In this document: piece after piece, positions 1-54,554 of the stretch
Layout of the letters: the number at the start of each line of letters is the position of its first letter
How positions within the stretch are numbered: the first letter of the stretch is position 1
Assembly (NCBI RefSeq): GCF_036088315.1
Contig: NZ_CP107996.1
Location: forward strand, 992,001-1,056,000
Source of the DNA: Streptomyces sp. NBC_00344
Lineage (GTDB): Bacteria; Actinomycetota; Actinomycetes; Streptomycetales; Streptomycetaceae
Reading direction: 5' to 3'
DNA: 64,000 nucleotides
Program-made: the position numbers and the translations under genes
Notes under the pieces: model-generated
Databases searched by the model: none
Seen by the model: the letters and a program-made list of their open reading frames with translations, nothing else
What the model was told of the DNA's origin: nothing

Positions 1-494
1 GAATCGGGCTCGAAGAGAGTGGCCCGCAGGGACTCCTGGGTGCTGGTGTCCTTGAGGAAGGCAAGCGCTGCCACCATCGGGCCGTGCAGGGTGGCGAGGC
101 CCATCCGGACGGCGAACGCCTCATGCAGCGTGGTCACATCGCTGTAGCCGACAAACACCTTGGGACCCGCCGCACGCAGCGCGGTCCAGTCGAGCAGATC
201 GACCATGCGCTGCGCGCCGTATCCGCCGCGCGCACAGAAGACCGCGGAGACCGCCGGGTCGCACCAGGCCTGCTCGAAGTCGCGGGCGCGTGCCTCGTCC
301 GCGCCCGCGAGATAGCGGAACTGCGGGTGGCGGTCGAGCACATGGGGCAGCACCACGGGGTCGAGGTCCCACCCGCGCAGGATGTCGAGGCCTGCGGCGA
401 GCCGGTCCTCCGGCACAGGGCCGCTGGACGCCACGACGGCCACTCTGGATCCCGGCCTCAGTCGGGCCGGCCGGGTCAATGGGGTCAGCGTCAT
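1..494 (-). CDS. LD-carboxypeptidase, peptidase family S66 (partial)
   Basis: The first 164 residues are present; the gene runs off the left edge. The N-terminal alpha/beta fold and the motif GYSDVT, which carries the nucleophilic serine in S66 enzymes, are visible; the catalytic Glu/His would lie beyond the edge. Family members cleave the L-D bond of murein tetrapeptides in the cytoplasm (LdcA) or peptide-nucleotides such as microcin C7 (MccF). The ATG at 494 overlaps the TGA of the upstream S9 peptidase gene by 4 bases (ATGA), so it is translationally coupled and is the last visible gene of a four-peptidase operon. Family assignment is confident; LdcA versus MccF role cannot be decided from this half. 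Confidence 0.85.
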   Translation of the reverse strand, partial: MTLTPLTRPARLRPGSRVAVVASSGPVPEDRLAAGLDILRGWDLDPVVLPHVLDRHPQFRYLAGADEARARDFEQAWCDPAVSAVFCARGGYGAQRMVDLLDWTALRAAGPKVFVGYSDVTTLHEAFAVRMGLATLHGPMVAALAFLKDTSTQESLRATLFEPD

Positions 495-2473
495 GCGTCC
501 AGCTCCAGAGTCGGGATGTCGGAGCGCGCGATCCTGAAGGTCTGCGCGTACAGGGAGAGTTCGGCTTCCAGGGCGCGGATCATGGTGTCGGCTCTGCGGA
601 AGCCGTGACCCTCGCCCTCGAAGGTGAGATACGCGTGCGGCACCCTCCGGCCGGCCATCCGCGCCAGGAAGTGTTCGCACTGCGCGGGCGGGCAGATCAC
701 GTCGTCGAGGCCCTGAAGCAGCAGAAACGGTGCGGTGATCTGCTCCGGATGCTGCGCGGGTGACCGCTCGCGGTAGCGCTCGGGGACTTCCGCCAGTGGC
801 CCGATGAGGCTCTCCAGATACCGGGACTCGAAGTCGTGGGTGCCGTCGTCCGATGCCCAGTCCGTCAGATCGAGGATCGGGTAGATGATGGTGCCGCAGG
901 CGTAGACGTCCGTGGAGACCAGTGATGCCGCGGTCGTCCAGCCACCAGCGCTGCCGCCGCGGATCGCCAACCTGGCCGGGTCCGCGGTGCCTTCGGACGC
1001 GAGAGCGAGGGCGACAGCCGCGCAGTCCTCGACGTCGACCAGCCCCCACTGACCGCGTAGCCGGTTGCGGTATTCCCTTCCGTATCCCGTCGAGCCGCCG
1101 TACTCGACCTCGGCGACGCCGATGCCCCGCGAGGTGAAGTAGGCGATTTCCAGGTCGAGTACCAGAGGAGTGCGGCCGGTCGGACCTCCGTGCGCCCACA
1201 TCACATAGGGCGGCAGCTCACCATCGGGGGCGGAGTGGTCCGGACTGTGCGGTGGATACACATGGGCGTGGATCTCGCGGCCCTGCGGACCCGTGAACGT
1301 ACGGACCTGGGGCTCGGGGTAGTGCGCGGGATCCACCACGTCCCGGTGGGCGGAGCCGACCACCCGGGTGTGACCGGTGCGGGTGTCGAGCTCGACGATC
1401 TCGGCCGCACGGCGAGGTCCGGCCGCCACGCCGAACACCCGGGAGCCTGCCGCCGACAGACTCGGCGCCCACTCGGTCCAGGGACCTGGCGCGTCGACCA
1501 GCTCGCCGGTCTCCGGGTCGAGTACGCCGAGGGCCGCGGCGCCCTTTCCGTGCACGACAGCGACCAGGCCGTTGTCCAGCGGTTCGAACCATTTCTGACC
1601 GATTTTCCAGAGCGCTCCGCCGAACTCCTCGTCGCGGGCACAGAGCGCCCTGGTCCCTCCGTCCGGCTCCACGCGGTAGAGATTCCACCAGCCGGTGCGG
1701 TCCGATGCGAACAGCAGTTGCCCGTCCGCGGTCCACCCGGCCTGGGCGACCGACTCGTCGGGCCCCCCGGCGCACTGGCGGGCCGCCCGGAGCGTGCCGT
1801 CCACACCGACATCGGCCAGCATCACGTCAGTGCCATCCCAGGGCATCCGGGGGTGGTCCCAGCCGAGCCACACCGCGCGGCGCCCGTCCGGTGAGAGCCG
1901 CGGGCCGGTCACGAAGCGGTGCGTGGTGTCGGAGAGCTCGCGGACCGCCGCGCGGTCGCCGGCTGCGGAACCGTCCAGCGGCACGGCCACGATCAGGCGC
2001 CGCACGGCGGTCGGCGAATCCCCGGTGAACTCCTCGAGGACGCACCAGACTTCGCCACGATCGGGGTGGATGGTGGGATCCACCCAGCGGAGCCCGCCGC
2101 CCACGGACGAAACCGGGGTGAGCGGCCTCGGCTCTCCGCCCTTGTCCGGCTCGCAGGCGTAGAGCCGCTGGTCGGCGAAGTGCACGAAGACCACGAGTGG
2201 TCCGCCGTCGGTGTGTGCCGTGCCGGCCCAGGGGTGCCCGCCGTACTCGATGACCCTGCTGCGGACGTTCCACGGGGCGGGCAGGACCGATTCCTCCGCG
2301 CCGTCGGCGCGCCGCCGCACCAGGGCGCGGCGGCCGCCTTCGTCCGGGCGCGGCTCGGTCCACCAGACCTCCTCGCCGACCACTCCGATGTATTCGGGCC
2401 TGCCGTCGTGCGATGCCGCGAGCGCGGCGTCGATCGGCGATGGCCAGGTTCCGTAAGGCCCGGTGGGCGCCAT
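491..2473 (-). CDS. S9 family peptidase (prolyl oligopeptidase type)
   Basis: Protein of 660 residues: an N-terminal beta-propeller-like region with WD/TolB-type repeats (roughly 1-390) and a C-terminal alpha/beta-hydrolase domain. Serine nucleophile in GGSAGG, then Asp in GLDDVICPP and His in EGEGHGF near the C terminus form a complete triad. Such enzymes cut short oligopeptides, often after proline or acylated residues. No signal peptide is visible, so it is probably cytoplasmic. Start: the ATG at 2473 follows AGGGGAGTTGGGAGC; an in-frame ATG 51 bases upstream lies inside the preceding M20 gene and lacks such a site. It begins 13 bases after that gene and overlaps the S66 gene by 4. Confidence 0.88.
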   Translation of the reverse strand: MAPTGPYGTWPSPIDAALAASHDGRPEYIGVVGEEVWWTEPRPDEGGRRALVRRRADGAEESVLPAPWNVRSRVIEYGGHPWAGTAHTDGGPLVVFVHFADQRLYACEPDKGGEPRPLTPVSSVGGGLRWVDPTIHPDRGEVWCVLEEFTGDSPTAVRRLIVAVPLDGSAAGDRAAVRELSDTTHRFVTGPRLSPDGRRAVWLGWDHPRMPWDGTDVMLADVGVDGTLRAARQCAGGPDESVAQAGWTADGQLLFASDRTGWWNLYRVEPDGGTRALCARDEEFGGALWKIGQKWFEPLDNGLVAVVHGKGAAALGVLDPETGELVDAPGPWTEWAPSLSAAGSRVFGVAAGPRRAAEIVELDTRTGHTRVVGSAHRDVVDPAHYPEPQVRTFTGPQGREIHAHVYPPHSPDHSAPDGELPPYVMWAHGGPTGRTPLVLDLEIAYFTSRGIGVAEVEYGGSTGYGREYRNRLRGQWGLVDVEDCAAVALALASEGTADPARLAIRGGSAGGWTTAASLVSTDVYACGTIIYPILDLTDWASDDGTHDFESRYLESLIGPLAEVPERYRERSPAQHPEQITAPFLLLQGLDDVICPPAQCEHFLARMAGRRVPHAYLTFEGEGHGFRRADTMIRALEAELSLYAQTFRIARSDIPTLELDA

Positions 2474-2486
2474 GCTCCCAACTCCC

Positions 2487-3833
2487 CTATGCGGTTCGCA
2501 GATAGTGATCGAGGACCTGAACACCGAAGTGCAGCGCGTCCACCGGGACCCGCTCGTCGACGCCGTGGAAGAGGGCCTGGTAGTCGAAACCGGGCGGGAG
2601 CCTCAGCGGCGAGAATCCGTAGCCGGTGATCCCGAGCCGGGAGAACTGCTTGGCGTCCGTGCCACCCGACATGCAGTAGGGCACCACATGCCCTTCGGGG
2701 GCGAAGCGCTCGATGGCGGCGCGGAGCTTGGCGTAGGTCGGGGAGTCCACCGGGGCCTGGAGTGCCACCTCGCCGTGGTCGAACTCCCAGTCGACACCGG
2801 GGCCGGTGAGCCGGTCGAGCGTCTCCCGGAACTCCTGCTCGCCGCCGGGCAGCGTCCGCCCGTCGACGTAGGCGGTCGCGTGTCCTGGGATCACATTGAT
2901 CTTGTAACCGGCTGTGAGCATCGTCGGGTTGGCGCTGTTGCGCACAGTCGCCTCGATCAGGGAAGCTGCCGGGCCGAGTTTGGCGAGCAGTGCGTCGACG
3001 TCGAAATCGGCGGCCCCGGTGTCCACGTCGATGCCGTACAGCGCGGCAGTCTCGCTGAGCGCTGCCCGGACGGTGGCGGTGAGCCGCACCGGCCACTGAT
3101 GCTCGCCGATCCTGGCGATCGCCCCGGCAAGCCTGCTCACGGCGTTGTCACGGTTGACCTTGGATCCGTGGCCGGCTCTGCCGTGCGCGGTCAGTTTCAG
3201 CCAGGCGGTGCCGCGCTCCCCCGCCGCGATCGGGTAGATGGATATTCCGGGCCCGGCGTGGAACGTGAAGGCACCGGACTCACTGATGCCCTCGGTACAC
3301 CCCTCGAAGAGACCGGGGTGCCTGTCGGCAAGAAAGCCCGATCCGTCGACGGCGCTGGCCTCCTCGTCCGCCGTATAGGCGATGACGATGTCCCGCCGGG
3401 GGCGGACCCCGTCCCGTGCCCAGGCCCGGACGACCGCGAGAACCATCGCGTCCATGTTCTTCATGTCGATGGCACCGCGCCCCCATACGACACCATCCCT
3501 GACCTCCCCGGAGAAAGGGTGCACGGTCCAGTCATCGGGCTCGGCGGGTACGACGTCGAGATGGCCGTGGACAAGCAACGCGTCGGCCGACGGATCGGTC
3601 CCCTCGATCCGCGCCACCACATTGGTACGTCCCTGGGCGCGCTCCAGAAGAGTCGGTTCGATTCCGGCACCGGCCAGCCGCTCCGCGACGTACTCCGCCG
3701 CCGGCCGCTCCCGGCAGTCGCCGCCGCCCCGGTTCGTGGTGTCGATCCGGATGAGCTCCGAGGTGAAGTCCACGACCTCGTCGAACGCCAGGGCATCCGG
3801 CGCGGCTGCTTCGGCGGGCCTGTCGTCAGCCAT
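2487..3833 (-). CDS. M20/M25/M40 family metallopeptidase
   Basis: Protein of 448 residues, normal for the family. Metal-binding motifs are intact: HGHLDVVP (His and catalytic Asp), GRGAIDMKN (bridging Asp) and ADEEAS (Glu pair); a dimerisation domain lies between about residues 190 and 310. M20 enzymes are cytoplasmic di-zinc dipeptidases, deacylases or carboxypeptidases; the exact substrate cannot be read from the sequence. The start at 3833 gives the typical short N-terminal tail (MADDRPAEAAAPDAL) and overlaps the end of the M55 gene by 8 bases. Position in the operon suggests it works on peptides together with the D-aminopeptidase upstream. Confidence 0.88.
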   Translation of the reverse strand: MADDRPAEAAAPDALAFDEVVDFTSELIRIDTTNRGGGDCRERPAAEYVAERLAGAGIEPTLLERAQGRTNVVARIEGTDPSADALLVHGHLDVVPAEPDDWTVHPFSGEVRDGVVWGRGAIDMKNMDAMVLAVVRAWARDGVRPRRDIVIAYTADEEASAVDGSGFLADRHPGLFEGCTEGISESGAFTFHAGPGISIYPIAAGERGTAWLKLTAHGRAGHGSKVNRDNAVSRLAGAIARIGEHQWPVRLTATVRAALSETAALYGIDVDTGAADFDVDALLAKLGPAASLIEATVRNSANPTMLTAGYKINVIPGHATAYVDGRTLPGGEQEFRETLDRLTGPGVDWEFDHGEVALQAPVDSPTYAKLRAAIERFAPEGHVVPYCMSGGTDAKQFSRLGITGYGFSPLRLPPGFDYQALFHGVDERVPVDALHFGVQVLDHYLRTA

Positions 3834-4659
3834 ACTGTTCCTCCACTGCGGACGAGACGATCGTCGTGATCGCCTTGAAGGTGCGAATGCCCTCATACAT
3901 CGTCCCGGTGGTGTAGGCGACACGCCGTTCACCGGTCCTGTCGACTCCCGGAACCACCGTCGCGGCACCGGCCAGATGCTCGGCGTCGAACTCCAGCTCC
4001 ACGGTGAACTGCTCACCGGTCACCGGTTCGTACCGGACTGCCAACGGCGCGGCCTCCGCGGCTGCCGCTCTGATGTCCGATGCGGTGCGCGCGGGGGTGC
4101 GGCACACCGCCGCATACCGCGAAACATGGTCCTTCACCGCGACCATACGGGCCTGCGGCGCCCATCCCAACGCGTCCTCGCAGGTCAGGTCGTCGCCGGT
4201 GACGAGCACCACGGGGACACCGTATTCCGCGACGACATGGGCGTTGAGAAGGCCTTCGCCGGCCCTGGCGCCGTTCAGCCAGACGCCGGTGATCGAGTTG
4301 GCGAGGTAGGTGTGGGCGAGCACGCCCTCCATGCCGGCACCCGTGTGGTAACCGACGAAGGCGATGCCGTCCACATCGCCGTGCTGCACGCCTTCGACCA
4401 TGGAGAGCGCCTTGTGCCGCCCGGTGAGCAGCTGGACTCGCTCATCGAGCCGCTCGATGAGCAGGTTGCGCATCGACCAGTGGGCCTCGTTGATGAGCAC
4501 CTCATCGGCGCCTCCATCGAAGAAACCGAGCGCGGCCGCATTCACATCGGAGGTGAAGAGCGACCGGCAGCGCTCCCACTGCGCCGTGCCCGGCAAAACA
4601 TCGCCGGGCCAGGTCACACCTGTTGCGCCCTCCATGTCGGCGCTGATGAGGATCTTCAT
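3826..4659 (-). CDS. M55 family D-aminopeptidase (DppA-like)
   Basis: Protein of 277 residues, full length for family M55. The N terminus KILISADMEG holds the zinc ligands Asp8 and Glu10; later histidines in EAHWS and GYHTGAG fit the remaining ligands. Bacillus DppA is a decameric zinc enzyme that removes N-terminal D-amino acids from peptides such as D-Ala-D-Ala, so peptidoglycan-derived peptides are likely substrates (inference). It is the first gene of the peptidase operon and sits 58 bases from the centre of a DasR-like palindrome. The leader before the ATG lacks a clear Shine-Dalgarno sequence. Confidence 0.87.
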   Translation of the reverse strand: MKILISADMEGATGVTWPGDVLPGTAQWERCRSLFTSDVNAAALGFFDGGADEVLINEAHWSMRNLLIERLDERVQLLTGRHKALSMVEGVQHGDVDGIAFVGYHTGAGMEGVLAHTYLANSITGVWLNGARAGEGLLNAHVVAEYGVPVVLVTGDDLTCEDALGWAPQARMVAVKDHVSRYAAVCRTPARTASDIRAAAAEAAPLAVRYEPVTGEQFTVELEFDAEHLAGAATVVPGVDRTGERRVAYTTGTMYEGIRTFKAITTIVSSAVEEQYG

Positions 4660-4714
4660 GCGACGAAACCGTACGCGTTGCGCAACGGCGCTACCAGGCC
4701 TGTGGATAACTATC

Positions 4715-4730
4715 GCTGGTCTAGACCTCT
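4715..4730. promoter_or_regulatory. DasR-responsive element (dre)-like operator
   Basis: The core GGTCTAGACC (4718-4727) is a perfect 10-base palindrome, and the 16-base window GCTGGTCTAGACCTCT matches 14 of 16 positions of the dre form ACTGGTCTAGACCACT recognised by the GntR-family regulator DasR. It lies in the 314-base gap 4660-4973, which holds no gene, about 60 bases upstream of the M55 peptidase start. On the minus strand TAGTTA (about 4707-4713) could be a -10 just downstream of the palindrome, a position suited to repression. No other GGTCTAGACC was noticed in the window. Confidence 0.7.
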
Positions 4731-4856
4731 AACTCACCTCCTATGGCCTACGACCAGTGCCTTCTCCCTGTGCGATGGCTGCCCTTTCGGTGCAGGCGAC
4801 CGGCTGCGCAGTGTCCGTACGGCGCGTCGTCGCGGCGGGCCGTACCGGCCCCGCGT

Positions 4857-4944
4857 TCCGGCAACTCGCATCCGGCATGCCGCTCCGGCCACTCCTCGGC
4901 GTGTCGCTCCGGTGAATCACTCCGGTGCCGGCGCGTCACTCCGG
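4857..4944. repeat. degenerate TCCGG-spaced repeat
   Basis: TCCGG occurs six times, at 4857, 4871, 4884, 4908, 4921 and 4940, three of them in a (T/C)CACTCCGG or CGCTCCGG context. It lies just downstream of the methyltransferase stop codon, in non-coding sequence. No function is claimed; the spacing is irregular (13-24 bases). Confidence 0.35.
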
Positions 4945-4973
4945 CGTCCCGTGCCGCAGTGCCGTCGGGAGTC

Positions 4974-5696
4974 TCAGGAGGCGGCGGCCAGTACGAACCA
5001 CCTGGCCGGCAGGTCGATCCGGCTGCCGTCAGGCATCTGCTCGGTCTGCGGCAGCACGGTGTCACCGCTCGCCAGAATCGTCAGCCCCGCACTCTCGAGC
5101 AGCTCGGGCACCTCCTCGTCGGTGGCGCCGGCCGGTTTGAGACCGTGGTCGAAGATCCGGCGCAGCTTCTCGGGCGGGCCGTCCGGGGCCTGTGCCGCCT
5201 GCTGGAGGACATCCCGCGACGCGGGGGTCAGCTCGACGACGAACGCACGGCCCTTCTCCCCGACAAGCTCCGCCACGGCGGCGGCGACGGCGGGGCGGGC
5301 CGCATGCTCGCTCTGGTGGATCACGGCGCGCATGTAGACATTGGTGTCGCCGATCCTGCGATGCAGGTCCTTCACCGCATCCCCGTCGGCAAGGTTGAGC
5401 TGCTCGAAATCGGCGACCCCCGCGGGGTCCGCGCGGCGCGCGTGCTCGATCGCCGCATGCGAGAGGTCGACCCCCATGGCGCGGGCGAAAACGGTGGAGA
5501 GGTACCGGGTCTGAGTGCCATTGCCGCAGCCGAGGTCGACCACGGGCAGCGAAATGTCCGCGTAGGGCAGCAGCAGTTCACAGTGCGGACCCGACGAGAG
5601 CGAGGCGTCGCAGTCCCAGATCGCCTCGCCGGGTGTGTCCGAAGTGGCCGACCAGAAGCCTTCCCATGCCTGGCGATACTGCTGTGACACGTCCAT
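4974..5696 (-). CDS. class I SAM-dependent methyltransferase
   Basis: Protein of 240 residues. Motif I VVDLGCGNGTQTRYL (about residues 52-66) and the acidic motif II GVDLSHAAIEHAR mark a Rossmann-fold methyltransferase of the Methyltransf_25/ubiE-like group. Substrate unknown. The ATG at 5696 is preceded by GGGAG at good distance; an in-frame TTG at 5723 would add nine residues and is less likely. It is a single gene, ending about 245 bases before the divergent side of the dre element and starting about 110 bases after the next minus-strand gene ends. Family is certain, role not. Confidence 0.82.
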   Translation of the reverse strand: MDVSQQYRQAWEGFWSATSDTPGEAIWDCDASLSSGPHCELLLPYADISLPVVDLGCGNGTQTRYLSTVFARAMGVDLSHAAIEHARRADPAGVADFEQLNLADGDAVKDLHRRIGDTNVYMRAVIHQSEHAARPAVAAAVAELVGEKGRAFVVELTPASRDVLQQAAQAPDGPPEKLRRIFDHGLKPAGATDEEVPELLESAGLTILASGDTVLPQTEQMPDGSRIDLPARWFVLAAAS

Positions 5697-5809
5697 CGGC
5701 ACTCCCAAGTCCGGCCCGCTCAAAGCGATTTGCTCAAGAACGGACTACCGTCCGGGACGGGCCGAAAGCAAGAGCGGGAGCGGACTCCGTCCTCAGGACC
5801 ACCCTGCTT

Positions 5810-8257
5810 TCACCAGGTGTTCGACCCAGGTCGCGCTACGTGGCCGAGTGCCTGCTCGAACCAGACGGTCTTGCCGTGCGCATTGGTGCTGGTGCCCCAG
5901 GCACGGGCAAGGCTGCTCACCACCAGCAGCCCACGGCCGAACTCGTCGTCCGCCGATGCGTTGAGCAGCGCCGCCGGAGCCGGTTCGTCGTCGCTGACCT
6001 CACAGAGGAGCGCATCGGTCCGCACCAGCCGCAGCCGGATCTGCTGGGTACGGCCGTTCTTCACGGCGTTGGTGACGAGTTCACTGACCATCAGCTCGGC
6101 CGTCTCCGCCGAGTCCGGGCGCCCCCACCGGAGCAGCCGGTCGCGCACCAGCCGCCTGGCCCGTGACACCTCACGCGGGTCGAGTTCCAGTTGCCACTCC
6201 GCGACGTCCTCCTCCGGAATGCCGTTCACCCTGGCCATCAGGAGGGCCACGTCGTCCTTGCGGCCATCGCTGGGGTTCAGCGCCCGGATGATCGCGTCGC
6301 AGGCGTCGTCCATCGAGGCCGCCGGATGGGCGGCGGAGGCGCAGAGCGCGGCCAGCCCATCTCCGATGTCCTGGCCGCGTACCTCGACCAGGCCATCGGT
6401 ACAGAGCACCAGGCGGTCGCCCGGTCGCACCCGGACGGTCGCGGTCTCGAAGGCGACACCGCCGACCCCGATCGGTGCCCCGGTCGGAAGCTCGATGAGT
6501 TCGGCCCTGCCATCCTCCGCGCGGACCAGCACGGGCGGGATGTGCCCGGCGTTGGCGATCTGGATCTCGGAACGGATCGGGTCGTAGACGGCGTAGAGAC
6601 AGGTGGCCAGATACTGCTCACCGAGCCGCTGCGCCAGGTCGTCGAGATTGCGCAGCAGCTGGGACGGAGGCATCTCCATGGTCGCCATGGTCAAAACCGC
6701 GGTGCGCAACTGGCCCATCATCGCTGCGGAGTTGAGCCCGTGGCCCATGACGTCGCCAACCACGAGCGCGGTCCGCGAGCCGGGGAGTTTCACGGAGTCG
6801 AACCAGTCCCCGCCGACCCTGCCGAGCCGGGCCCCGGGCAGATAGCGCGTGGCGATGTCACAGCCGGCCATCCGCGCTTCGACCTGAGGCAGCATGCTGT
6901 CCTGGAGCGTCTCCGCGACGTTCTCCTGATAGGTGTACATACGGGCGTTGTCGAGCACGAGCCCGGCCCGTGCGGCGAGTTCGGCGCCGGTGGTTCGGTC
7001 GATGTCGTCAAAGGGCTCGCGGCCCGGCCGGCGCATCAGCACCATGAAGCCCAGGACCACGTCGCGGGCCTTCAACGGCACAATCAGCAGAGACCGGTTG
7101 TTGATCAGCGGGCGCAGGTCCCGCTTCTCGAACTCGCCGGAGATCCGGGCACTCAGCTCTTCACCGACATGAGGGACGAGGACCGGCTCACCCGTGACCA
7201 TGCACTGGAAGAAGGGCGTGTGCTCGGGAAAGGCGATGGCCTCACCGACCGGCACGGTGTCGTCCCAGCGGCCCGGTTCGTCGTTGTGCTCGACCCACAC
7301 CCGGTGCCAGACGGTGGTCACATCCGGCGGCCCGTCGGGGAAACCCTCACCTGCCAGCACGGCGGCGCGCAGATGGGTACCCGCGAAGTCGGTGAACCGT
7401 GGCACGGCAGCGCTTGTCACTTCACGGATGGTGCGTTCCAGATCGAGGGAGGTGCCGATCCGGCCGCTCACCTCGTTGAGGAATTCCAGTCGCTCACGGA
7501 CCGCGGCGTATTCGAGGTCGAGCTCCGGACGCGGCGCCGCGAGTGGACGGGAACCCTCGTCGCCCTGGCCCCCGCCACTCGTGGCCCATCGACGGGCCGC
7601 GCGCCGCGGCACCCCCCAGTCCGGAGTGACCGGAACGCGGTCGCGCTGACTGAACTCCAGGATTGGATAGCCGAGTTCGAGGACCTGCGAGACGATCCCG
7701 GTCGCCTCGTGGACGCTCATGTTCGGCAGGATCTCGGGCAAGCGCCCGGCCAGGTCCTGGTAGCCCGGAAAGTCGGTGTGCAGCGCGAACGCCGGGGCGA
7801 CGGTCTCGGCGTCCGGACCACCGCCCCCCTCGCTCCCCCTGAGCTGAGCGGCGTCGGCGGCGAGCACCAGCAGCCGCTCGGGACCGGGACCGACCAGCGG
7901 GTACGCCCACCACAGCACGTCGATACGGCCGCCCCGCGGCTCGTCGACCCGGGCCCGGCCCGCCGCCGGATAGGCGATGCTGCCGCTCAGCGAGGTGTCG
8001 AGTTCGGGGCCGAAATCGGAGTAGGCGCCGTCCGCCCCCTGCACCACGTCCTGTGCCAACGCCCCGGATACCGGGAGGAGTTCACTTGCCGCGCAGCCGA
8101 CCGCTTCCTCCCTGCTGACACCGAAGAGTCGCCGGGCACCGGTCGACCAGTGGGACACAAGTCCTTCCGCGTCGACGACGACCACGGCGAGCGGCACGCG
8201 GCCAGCCGCGGCGTCCCGCGACTGTGGTGCCCTCTGCGGCGGTACACCAAGGTTCAT
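5810..8257 (-). CDS. PAS/GAF sensor with SpoIIE phosphatase and HATPase domains
   Basis: Protein of 815 residues. Order seen: PAS domain (about 20-130), a second PAS-like stretch (about 165-230), GAF (about 265-440), PP2C/SpoIIE phosphatase (about 455-670; RVGGDWFD, GDVMGHG, NAGHIPP and CTDGLVE carry the metal-binding acids) and a C-terminal RsbW-like HATPase (about 690-810; VSELVTNAV N-box, GRGLLVV). Proteins of this build control anti-sigma-factor antagonists by dephosphorylation and may also phosphorylate them, acting in the cytoplasm in response to a ligand or redox signal. Start chosen at MNLGVPP, with GGAAGGAG upstream; longer frames to 8452 have no ribosome site. No sigma or antagonist gene is adjacent. 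Confidence 0.88.
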   Translation of the reverse strand: MNLGVPPQRAPQSRDAAAGRVPLAVVVVDAEGLVSHWSTGARRLFGVSREEAVGCAASELLPVSGALAQDVVQGADGAYSDFGPELDTSLSGSIAYPAAGRARVDEPRGGRIDVLWWAYPLVGPGPERLLVLAADAAQLRGSEGGGGPDAETVAPAFALHTDFPGYQDLAGRLPEILPNMSVHEATGIVSQVLELGYPILEFSQRDRVPVTPDWGVPRRAARRWATSGGGQGDEGSRPLAAPRPELDLEYAAVRERLEFLNEVSGRIGTSLDLERTIREVTSAAVPRFTDFAGTHLRAAVLAGEGFPDGPPDVTTVWHRVWVEHNDEPGRWDDTVPVGEAIAFPEHTPFFQCMVTGEPVLVPHVGEELSARISGEFEKRDLRPLINNRSLLIVPLKARDVVLGFMVLMRRPGREPFDDIDRTTGAELAARAGLVLDNARMYTYQENVAETLQDSMLPQVEARMAGCDIATRYLPGARLGRVGGDWFDSVKLPGSRTALVVGDVMGHGLNSAAMMGQLRTAVLTMATMEMPPSQLLRNLDDLAQRLGEQYLATCLYAVYDPIRSEIQIANAGHIPPVLVRAEDGRAELIELPTGAPIGVGGVAFETATVRVRPGDRLVLCTDGLVEVRGQDIGDGLAALCASAAHPAASMDDACDAIIRALNPSDGRKDDVALLMARVNGIPEEDVAEWQLELDPREVSRARRLVRDRLLRWGRPDSAETAELMVSELVTNAVKNGRTQQIRLRLVRTDALLCEVSDDEPAPAALLNASADDEFGRGLLVVSSLARAWGTSTNAHGKTVWFEQALGHVARPGSNTW

Positions 8258-8320
8258 GGGTGGAAGGCTCCTTCCCGGCCGCAAGGTTCTGCGGTTAGTA
8301 ACCCCACCGTAAGGCCCCGG

Positions 8321-53715: not shown

Positions 53716-54554
53716 GGCTGCACCAGGCCCTCGTACGCGTCGGGGCGCCTGTCCCGGTAGAACGCCCATTGCTGGCGCACTTCGTCGATCAGGCTCATGT
53801 CGAGGTCACGGACGAGGAGTTCCTCCTCCTTGTCTCCGGCGACCTCCCCGACGAACTGCCCCCGGGGGTCCACGAAGTAGCTGGTGCCGTAGAAGTCGTT
53901 GTCGCCGTACTCCTCCTGACCGACGCGGTTGATGGCGGCGATGAAGTACTCGTTGGCGACCGCGGAAGCCGGCTGCTCCAGCTGCCAGAGATGGGCGGAC
54001 AGACCACGTGATGTGGCGGAGGGGTTGTAGACGATCTGAGCTCCGTTCAGGCCCAGTTGACGCCAGCCCTCGGGGAAGTGGCGGTCGTAGCAGATATAGA
54101 CGCCGACCTTGCCGACGGCCGTGTCGAAGACCGGCCAGCCCAGGTTTCCCGGTTTGAAGTAGTACTTCTCCCAGAACCCCTTGACCTGCGGGATGTGGTG
54201 CTTGCGATACTTCCCGAGGTACGAGCCGTCGGCGTCGATGACTGCGGCGGTGTTGAAGTAGAAGCCGGACTGCTCCAGCTCGAAGACCGGGACGACGATC
54301 ACCATGCCGGTCTCACGGGCGAGTTCCTGCATCCTGCGGACCGTCGGCCCGTCGGGCACCGGCTCGGCCCAGCGGTAGTGCTCGGGCTCCTGCACCTGGC
54401 AGAAGTAAGGAGCGTTGAAGACCTCCTGGAATCCGATGATCTTCGCACCCCTGCGGGCTGCTTCCCTCGCATGTTCCTCATGCTTGGCGATCATGGATTC
54501 GGTGTCGCCCGTCCAGGTGGCCTGGACCAGTGCGGCGCGTACGACATGGGACAT
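53712..54554 (-). CDS. nitrilase-superfamily amidohydrolase, probable beta-ureidopropionase
   Basis: Protein of 280 residues. Catalytic triad of the superfamily: Glu44 in IIGFQEVF, Lys in GKYRKHHIPQ, and Cys in VYICYDRHFPEG. It hydrolyses N-carbamoyl-beta-alanine to beta-alanine, CO2 and ammonia, the third step of reductive pyrimidine breakdown. First gene of the operon. Start at MSHVVRA with GAAGGAG 6 bases upstream; an ATG five codons earlier overlaps that site. Confidence 0.9.
   Translation of the reverse strand: MSHVVRAALVQATWTGDTESMIAKHEEHAREAARRGAKIIGFQEVFNAPYFCQVQEPEHYRWAEPVPDGPTVRRMQELARETGMVIVVPVFELEQSGFYFNTAAVIDADGSYLGKYRKHHIPQVKGFWEKYYFKPGNLGWPVFDTAVGKVGVYICYDRHFPEGWRQLGLNGAQIVYNPSATSRGLSAHLWQLEQPASAVANEYFIAAINRVGQEEYGDNDFYGTSYFVDPRGQFVGEVAGDKEEELLVRDLDMSLIDEVRQQWAFYRDRRPDAYEGLVQP

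Follow-up and report, generated by a model that had tools for sequence, protein, structure and literature searches.

A predicted DasR operator paired with a DnaA-box-like element upstream of a conserved peptidase operon in Streptomyces

The regulator DasR links the supply of N-acetylglucosamine (GlcNAc) to the uptake of sugars, the degradation of chitin, development, and antibiotics, and in Bacillus subtilis the D-aminopeptidase DppA is encoded by the first dpp gene. There, the LD-carboxypeptidase YkfA is encoded beside the dpp genes in a region for murein peptide use (PMC2954226; all articles with PMC numbers are cited for the parts of their text that were accessible). DasR is released by GlcNAc-6P and GlcN-6P (PMC12680351), and activation by DasR has been published as well (PMC9404778). 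A crystal structure of NagR on a dre operator displays base contacts solely to G-7, G-5, and G-4, i.e., to GG-N6-CC (PMC4333415), and autoregulation of dnaA by its product has been reported for Streptomyces (PMC8203912). In a literature survey at the level of titles and abstract openings that covered few subscription journals, we found among the papers listed no DasR-controlled D-aminopeptidase operon, no element joining dre and DnaA box, and no link of the genes of the peptidase operon described below to the replication initiator. Judging from its sequence, we consider it fairly likely (probability roughly 0.7) that a DasR operator and a DnaA-box-like element form a composite operator that controls this M55-M20-S9-S66 operon with amino-sugar supply.

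The window, i.e., the whole 64-kb stretch of DNA analyzed here (G000:C1:992001-1056000 of a 7.06-Mb genome), contains GCTGGTCTAGACCTCT at positions 4715-4730 of the plus strand, as found by direct reading and pattern search. Compared with ACTGGTCTAGACCACT, which we take to be the dre consensus and used for scoring, this site matches at 14 of 16 positions (two mismatches) with a perfect GGTCTAGACC core, just as the first-pass annotation had reported. That annotation had also put 58 bases between the site and the D-aminopeptidase start, while the measured gap to the dppA ATG (4659, minus strand) is 55 bases. Sites of the ACTGGTCTAGACCACT form are present in the accessible part of PMC4398421 Table 1. 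The intergenic gap that hosts the site spans 314 bp from a methyltransferase gene to the M55 gene, both on the minus strand, and the features of the locus are the following:

4715 to 4730, reading AGAGGTCTAGACCAGC on the minus strand: predicted dre-type operator, centre 63.5 bp 5' of the dppA start codon
4700 to 4710, minus strand: DnaA-box-like element GTTATCCACAG, on the -35 side of the dre and separated from it by 4 bp
4692 to 4697, minus strand: putative -35 hexamer CTGGTA, from aligned upstream regions, 18 bp from the -10
4668 to 4673, minus strand: putative -10 hexamer TACGGT, 8 nt before the ATG
3826 to 4659, minus strand: dppA, peptidase M55 D-aminopeptidase of 277 aa, by profile and structure match
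2487 to 3833, minus strand: M20 peptidase/deacylase of the NF005913 subfamily, its start overlapping the dppA stop
491 to 2524, minus strand: S9 peptidase of the prolyl-oligopeptidase type, with candidate start codons at 2473 and 2524
1 to 494, minus strand: S66 LD-carboxypeptidase of 309 aa, a relative of muramoyltetrapeptide carboxypeptidase, continuing past the window start

To score such sites, we used a matrix composed of 39 published ones (PMC4398421 Table 1 as accessible, with intragenic and weaker non-canonical sites omitted). The window site is a 16-bp imperfect palindrome that scores 21.4, i.e., in the range of verified dre sites (16.4-24.6 for the 39 sites that built the matrix, an in-sample range). 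In 15 Mb simulated with a first-order Markov model of the window dinucleotides, three places had at most two mismatches to dre (0.013 per 64 kb) and two reached a matrix score of at least 21.4, and the runner-up place in the window itself scores 10.7. Positions 54516-54531 hold a second match with at most three mismatches (score 10.7), which is near chance level. Across the 7.06-Mb genome, 26+26 matches with at most three mismatches to dre compare with 9+12 for the reversed pattern. Both dre sites and dasR, for which the first-pass annotation had suggested searching the full genome, are present there. The dppA site belongs to a group of five that deviate from dre at no more than two positions; two of the others precede PTS genes (one confirmed as PTS_EIIC, the other named by eye) and one adjoins dasR. 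By matrix score the dppA site is not at the top, with eight of the 27 dre-like loci scored ranking higher and one equal.

In the 300 bp upstream of dppA in a first set of 81 loci (the window and 80 relatives; the nearest relatives found for this genome are Streptomyces), 46 had a site scoring at least 8, as did 0.6% of 2627 random windows from the same loci. Of these 46 sites, 39 begin 69-72 bp before the ATG, and 42 begin 56-58 bp before the -10 hexamer, the four exceptions being L073 (-139), L113 (-298), L063 (-91), and L090 (-69, no -10 by the rule used). Where the start codon has shifted 26-125 bp downstream from the former leaderless start (L105, L057, L048, and L071), the distance from palindrome to -10 is unchanged, and the dre therefore belongs to the promoter. 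A GAAGATC remnant follows the -10 in L048, L105, and L057 (together with an ATG in L057), and all four loci retain the old promoter and operator.

For a broader view we used a family sample of 121 genomes including our own, 91 of them with an M55 match. Leaving our own aside, we read the dppA upstream region in 84 of the remaining 90 genomes (all except six weaker matches and second copies), which together with the first set gave 165 regions, 162 of them distinct. A dre-like site scoring at least 8 is present in 73 of these, i.e., in 49/105 regions of Streptomyces, 17/27 of genus g7, 3/3 of g13, 2/2 of g16, 1/1 of g17, and 1/1 of g6, while none was found in the 23 regions of g3, g5, g8, g9, g10, g11, g12, g14, and g15. 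The -10 lies at a fixed spacing in 69 of the 73, either 56-58 bp (55 cases, 3 of them in g7) or 65-69 bp (14 cases, all in g7), two classes that differ by about one helical turn. A promoter-region site is thus conserved upstream of dppA orthologues, including those of five sister genera (g7, g6, g13, g16, and g17; e.g., AGAGGTCTAGACCACA, ATTGGTCTAGTCCACT, or AGAGGTCTAGACCTCT). Many of the sites outside Streptomyces are near-perfect, and many Streptomyces have a decayed dre upstream of dppA or none; only 38 of the 73 sites match the degenerate dre consensus given in the accessible text of PMC9404778.

On a quick DppA tree (134 rows, rooted on chosen g3, g11, and g14 sequences; 58 of its 128 inner forks are open), the first lineages to split off after the root are g9 and g12, both of which have no dre. 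The site is present in g6, g16, g17, g13, the majority of g7 rows, and the Streptomyces rows that branch early, but not in g8 and g10. The distribution requires 21 changes, and the simplest reading would be an early gain with many losses, though the tree cannot separate gain from loss. With 89 of 162 regions lacking the site and one Streptomyces clade of 29 rows keeping it in only three, control through dre is therefore dispensable. These absences would also fit a chance palindrome or a relic that has no regulatory role in this strain. The rarity expected by chance, the fixed spacing and deep conservation, and the perfect core of this strain all speak against such a reading, which we regard as extremely improbable.

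The first gene downstream encodes a protein that matches the M55 profile PF04951 with 300 bits and for which B. subtilis DppA (1hi9) was the sole solved relative found. Residues D8, E10, H60, H104, H115, and E133 of 1hi9, which we take to be its metal/catalytic residues, align with identical residues in the dppA protein, marking it as an M55 D-aminopeptidase. The NCBIfam DppA equivalog matches under its cut-off (177 of 430 bits), as does the NCBIfam muramoyltetrapeptide carboxypeptidase model for the S66 protein, so that substrates are assigned by inference; the peptidases of the operon probably break down the peptide moiety of the cell wall. All genes of the operon lie on the minus strand, tightly spaced or overlapping, and a GNAT acetyltransferase gene comes after S66 outside the window. 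The quartet with D-aminopeptidase and LD-carboxypeptidase described by the first-pass annotation thus holds up as M55-M20-S9-S66 and is conserved in Streptomyces, with the same order in 79 of the 80 relatives (the exception, L093, lacks an S9 match) and in one representative each of genera g16, g17, and g7. The g13 representative has M55-M20-S9 with no S66 match in the following 2.4 kb.

No ribosome-binding site was seen between the -10 and the ATG of dppA, and since the -10 lies only 8 nt before this start codon, the transcript is probably leaderless, with the dre centre near -62 to -64. The dre lies 5' of the putative -35 and overlaps neither hexamer, an arrangement that does not readily point to simple steric repression. 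We tentatively expect the effect of DasR on dppA to be repression, its default mode, but a location upstream of the -35 would be compatible with an activator as well, or with an anti-activator that masks the adjacent box.

Which regulator would own this site? The genome encodes eleven UTRA-domain regulators, one of which (L001) is DasR, as it matches the DasR structures 9i0v and 4zs8; two dre-like sites adjoin its gene. DasR is encoded in all 30 genomes searched (chosen from the 80 relatives), with a DNA-binding domain 93.8-100% identical and both operator-contacting arginines unchanged. The GG-N6-CC contacted in the NagR structure is the part retained in drifted dppA sites. Both contact arginines are present in only three of the eleven regulators, i.e., DasR and the HutC proteins L008 and L009. 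Provided that the site is functional, these sequence features make DasR its likely owner, and we hold this with good confidence. The first-pass annotation had proposed DasR as regulator and a link between the two halves of peptidoglycan breakdown. This proposal is partly supported: the site is of dre type, is conserved in six genera far more often than chance would allow and at a fixed promoter position, and precedes a D-aminopeptidase/LD-carboxypeptidase operon in a genome that encodes DasR. The choice of DasR over L008 or L009 as binder, the sign of regulation, and a murein substrate go beyond what these observations establish.

The alternative would be that the site belongs to another HutC regulator (L008 in the first place, L009 in the second) and that DasR binds it weakly or not at all. 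L008 is a DasR-like paralogue encoded in all 44 genomes searched (out of the 80 relatives), its gene is preceded by a near-invariant palindrome, ATTGGTCTTGACCAA(G/C), at 31 of 31 loci (L008 and L236-L265), and 33 of the 46 dppA sites of the first set have lower scores than any of the 39 published ones. However, the TCTTGA centre of the L008 palindrome, constant at all 31 loci, is absent from the listed dppA sites, the canonical dppA sites of the sister genera are of the DasR type, and a tblastn search of the eleven regulators against 80 dppA loci gave only weak partial matches (32-41% over 59-78 aa at 8 loci). The GntR/UTRA regulator L010 lacks both contact arginines despite the dre-like site upstream of its gene. 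We consider ownership by L008 or L009 improbable but not negligible. Since both L008 and L010 are encoded in 44 of 44 genomes, their co-occurrence with the dppA dre has no power in this matter. The site upstream of L010 is strong in this genome as well as in 11 of the 30 relatives read (L126, L128, L137-L142, and L144-L146), and is perhaps a further DasR target or the regulator's own operator.

We also considered a dedicated other regulator behind the drift of the core to GGTCCACTCC, GGACTGGACC, or GGTATGGACC, searching clade-specific drifted forms in nine and eight genomes, respectively, but came across no owner gene that shares the drift in an autoregulatory site. Exact TTGGTCCACTCCAA was found at four places in four of nine genomes, each at dppA by coordinates, and its one-mismatch matches lay inside coding frames in four of the four displayed. 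Exact AGGACTGGACCWYTG occurs at seven places in six of eight genomes, six of them at dppA and one elsewhere. At five of the seven displayed loci of the near form AGGTCTGGACCATTG, the gene that directly follows is always the same one. It encodes a secreted protein that looks fibronectin-III-like by eye, and our guess is that this is a chitinase.

While the operator palindrome itself was recognized by the first-pass annotation, the conserved DnaA-box-like element beside it was overlooked. The 9-mer TTNTCCACA, which we take to be the DnaA box consensus, is matched in this genome by TTATCCACA, and the variants seen upstream of dppA are TTATCCACA, TTTTCCACA, or TTGTCCACA. Their third base is A, T, or G among relatives, and DnaA boxes have A, T, or G at this position. 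In 44 of the 73 dre-bearing regions, TTNTCCAC(A/G)G lies 2-5 bp downstream of the dre (at 4 or 5 bp in 43 of them), and in those g7 regions whose dre is displaced by 11 bp away from the -10, the box is displaced as well. The 162 regions divide into 45 with dre and box, 11 with only the box, 28 with only the dre, and 78 with neither (Fisher p 3e-11, a descriptive value that ignores shared descent). This pairing at dppA is a new observation, and the box is likely a DnaA site as judged from its sequence.

The DnaA-like character of the element is also apparent from its distribution: GTTWTCCACAG has 14 exact places in the genome (none for the reversed control), and nine of them are no more than 85 kb away from dnaA (binomial p 5e-12). 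In 2.8 kb read beside dnaA (oriC not delimited), there is one TTGTCCACA and none of the 14 places. To either side of dnaA there is a group of GTTATCCACAG copies (G000:C1:3446647-3446700 and 3548021-3548320; L402 and L401), possibly clusters that titrate DnaA. The box is not a part of every dre, as it is missing from the 15 bp around each of the 26 other dre-like loci of this genome that were read (some 20 more pattern places are outside this set); composites of box and GG-N6-CC elsewhere in the family gave matches in at least 117 of 121 genomes.

Taken further, the DnaA-box-like element could be the main control and the dre secondary or vestigial, with DnaA coupling murein-peptide turnover to replication. 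The regions that retain the box alone, its sequence variants, and the clustering around dnaA would fit, but the regions with dre and no box and the near-perfect dre of many sister-genus regions would not, and we judge this reading very unlikely. In g6, g13, g16, and g17, an inverted box is present on the far side of the dre as well (left arm in 9 of 73 regions by our script's rule), while g7 and part of Streptomyces have one box only. At four dppA upstream regions of g16 and g13 (L318, L324, L325, and L329), the inverted boxes around a central dre form a perfect 44-bp palindrome.

In the mechanism that we favour, the dre would be the operator of the GlcNAc regulator DasR, a member of the GntR/HutC family, and together with the DnaA-box-like element 4 bp downstream would form a composite operator just 5' of the -35 of a leaderless promoter driving M55-M20-S9-S66. 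While GlcN-6P and GlcNAc-6P are scarce, DasR would sit on the dre and expression of the operon would most likely be low through repression. Once GlcNAc from cell-wall or chitin breakdown becomes available, DasR would leave, and peptidases for D-amino-acid and murein stem peptides would be produced alongside the sugar pathway. DnaA might bind the box and thereby also set operon expression. A bolder version, which we offer tentatively and consider rather doubtful, starts from an ancestral box-dre-box palindrome at which DasR and DnaA compete or cooperate so that murein-peptide recycling is gated by both amino-sugar supply and the replication initiator. If true, this would be a kind of operator that serves both a nutrient sensor and DnaA through a single element, with both boxes kept in the four genera named above.

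The same genome carries a strong dre, AGAGGTATAGACCACT (score 21.8, L434:2231-2246), that begins 173 bp ahead of an operon for a peptide ABC transporter of the Dpp/Opp type (2404-8262 of the same locus; G000:C1:1649231), of which the binding protein is confirmed as SBP_bac_5 and the four following genes are named by eye. An orthologue of this transporter at 1e-150 is present in 22 of 30 genomes searched, all 22 of them with a dre-like site scoring at least 13 upstream. In S. coelicolor, genes of the oligopeptide transporter operon SCO5476-5480 are up in a dasR mutant (PMC4398421), and DasR binds at bldK (PMC12680351). With a dre before both the peptide transporter and dppA, peptide import and the peptidases may therefore share a regulator.

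The conserved dre before the peptidase operon suggests joint control of wall sugars and peptides, i.e., the breakdown of both parts of the cell wall may be under common control. If true, the DasR signal would extend to the peptide half of cell-wall recycling, which would help explain the fate of stem peptides during dismantling of the mycelium, and the paired DnaA box would tie the M55-M20-S9-S66 genes to the replication initiator.

Compared with the DasR core regulon of S. coelicolor (nag, pts, das, and chi; PMC4398421), the locus shares the 16-bp dre palindrome in the promoter region, a distance to the gene start comparable with nagB (-68) and chb (-70; Table 1 of the same article), and the same regulator with an almost identical DNA-binding domain. 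It differs in that the target is a peptidase operon instead of sugar or chitin genes: no D-aminopeptidase is among the named genes in the accessible part of the DasR target table of PMC4398421 (which also lists unnamed SCO numbers), and the word "peptidase" is absent from the main text of that article. Unlike the 26 other dre-like loci of this genome, the dppA dre has a DnaA-box-like element beside it. The NagR/YvoA regulon of Bacillus (PMC4333415) has a HutC regulator, a GG-N6-CC operator, and the effectors GlcN-6P and GlcNAc-6P in common with this system, but no peptidase target was found in the accessible text on that regulon. The operon also differs from the dpp/ykf region of B. subtilis by its M20 and S9 peptidases, and its surroundings do not follow the arrangement of that region, in which a peptide transporter and YkfB/YkfC accompany the D-aminopeptidase; the order here is M55-M20-S9-S66(-GNAT), with no epimerase, NlpC/P60 endopeptidase, or transporter among these five genes. 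Shared control of peptide import and peptidases would recall B. subtilis, in which dpp and ykf genes are neighbours (PMC2954226).
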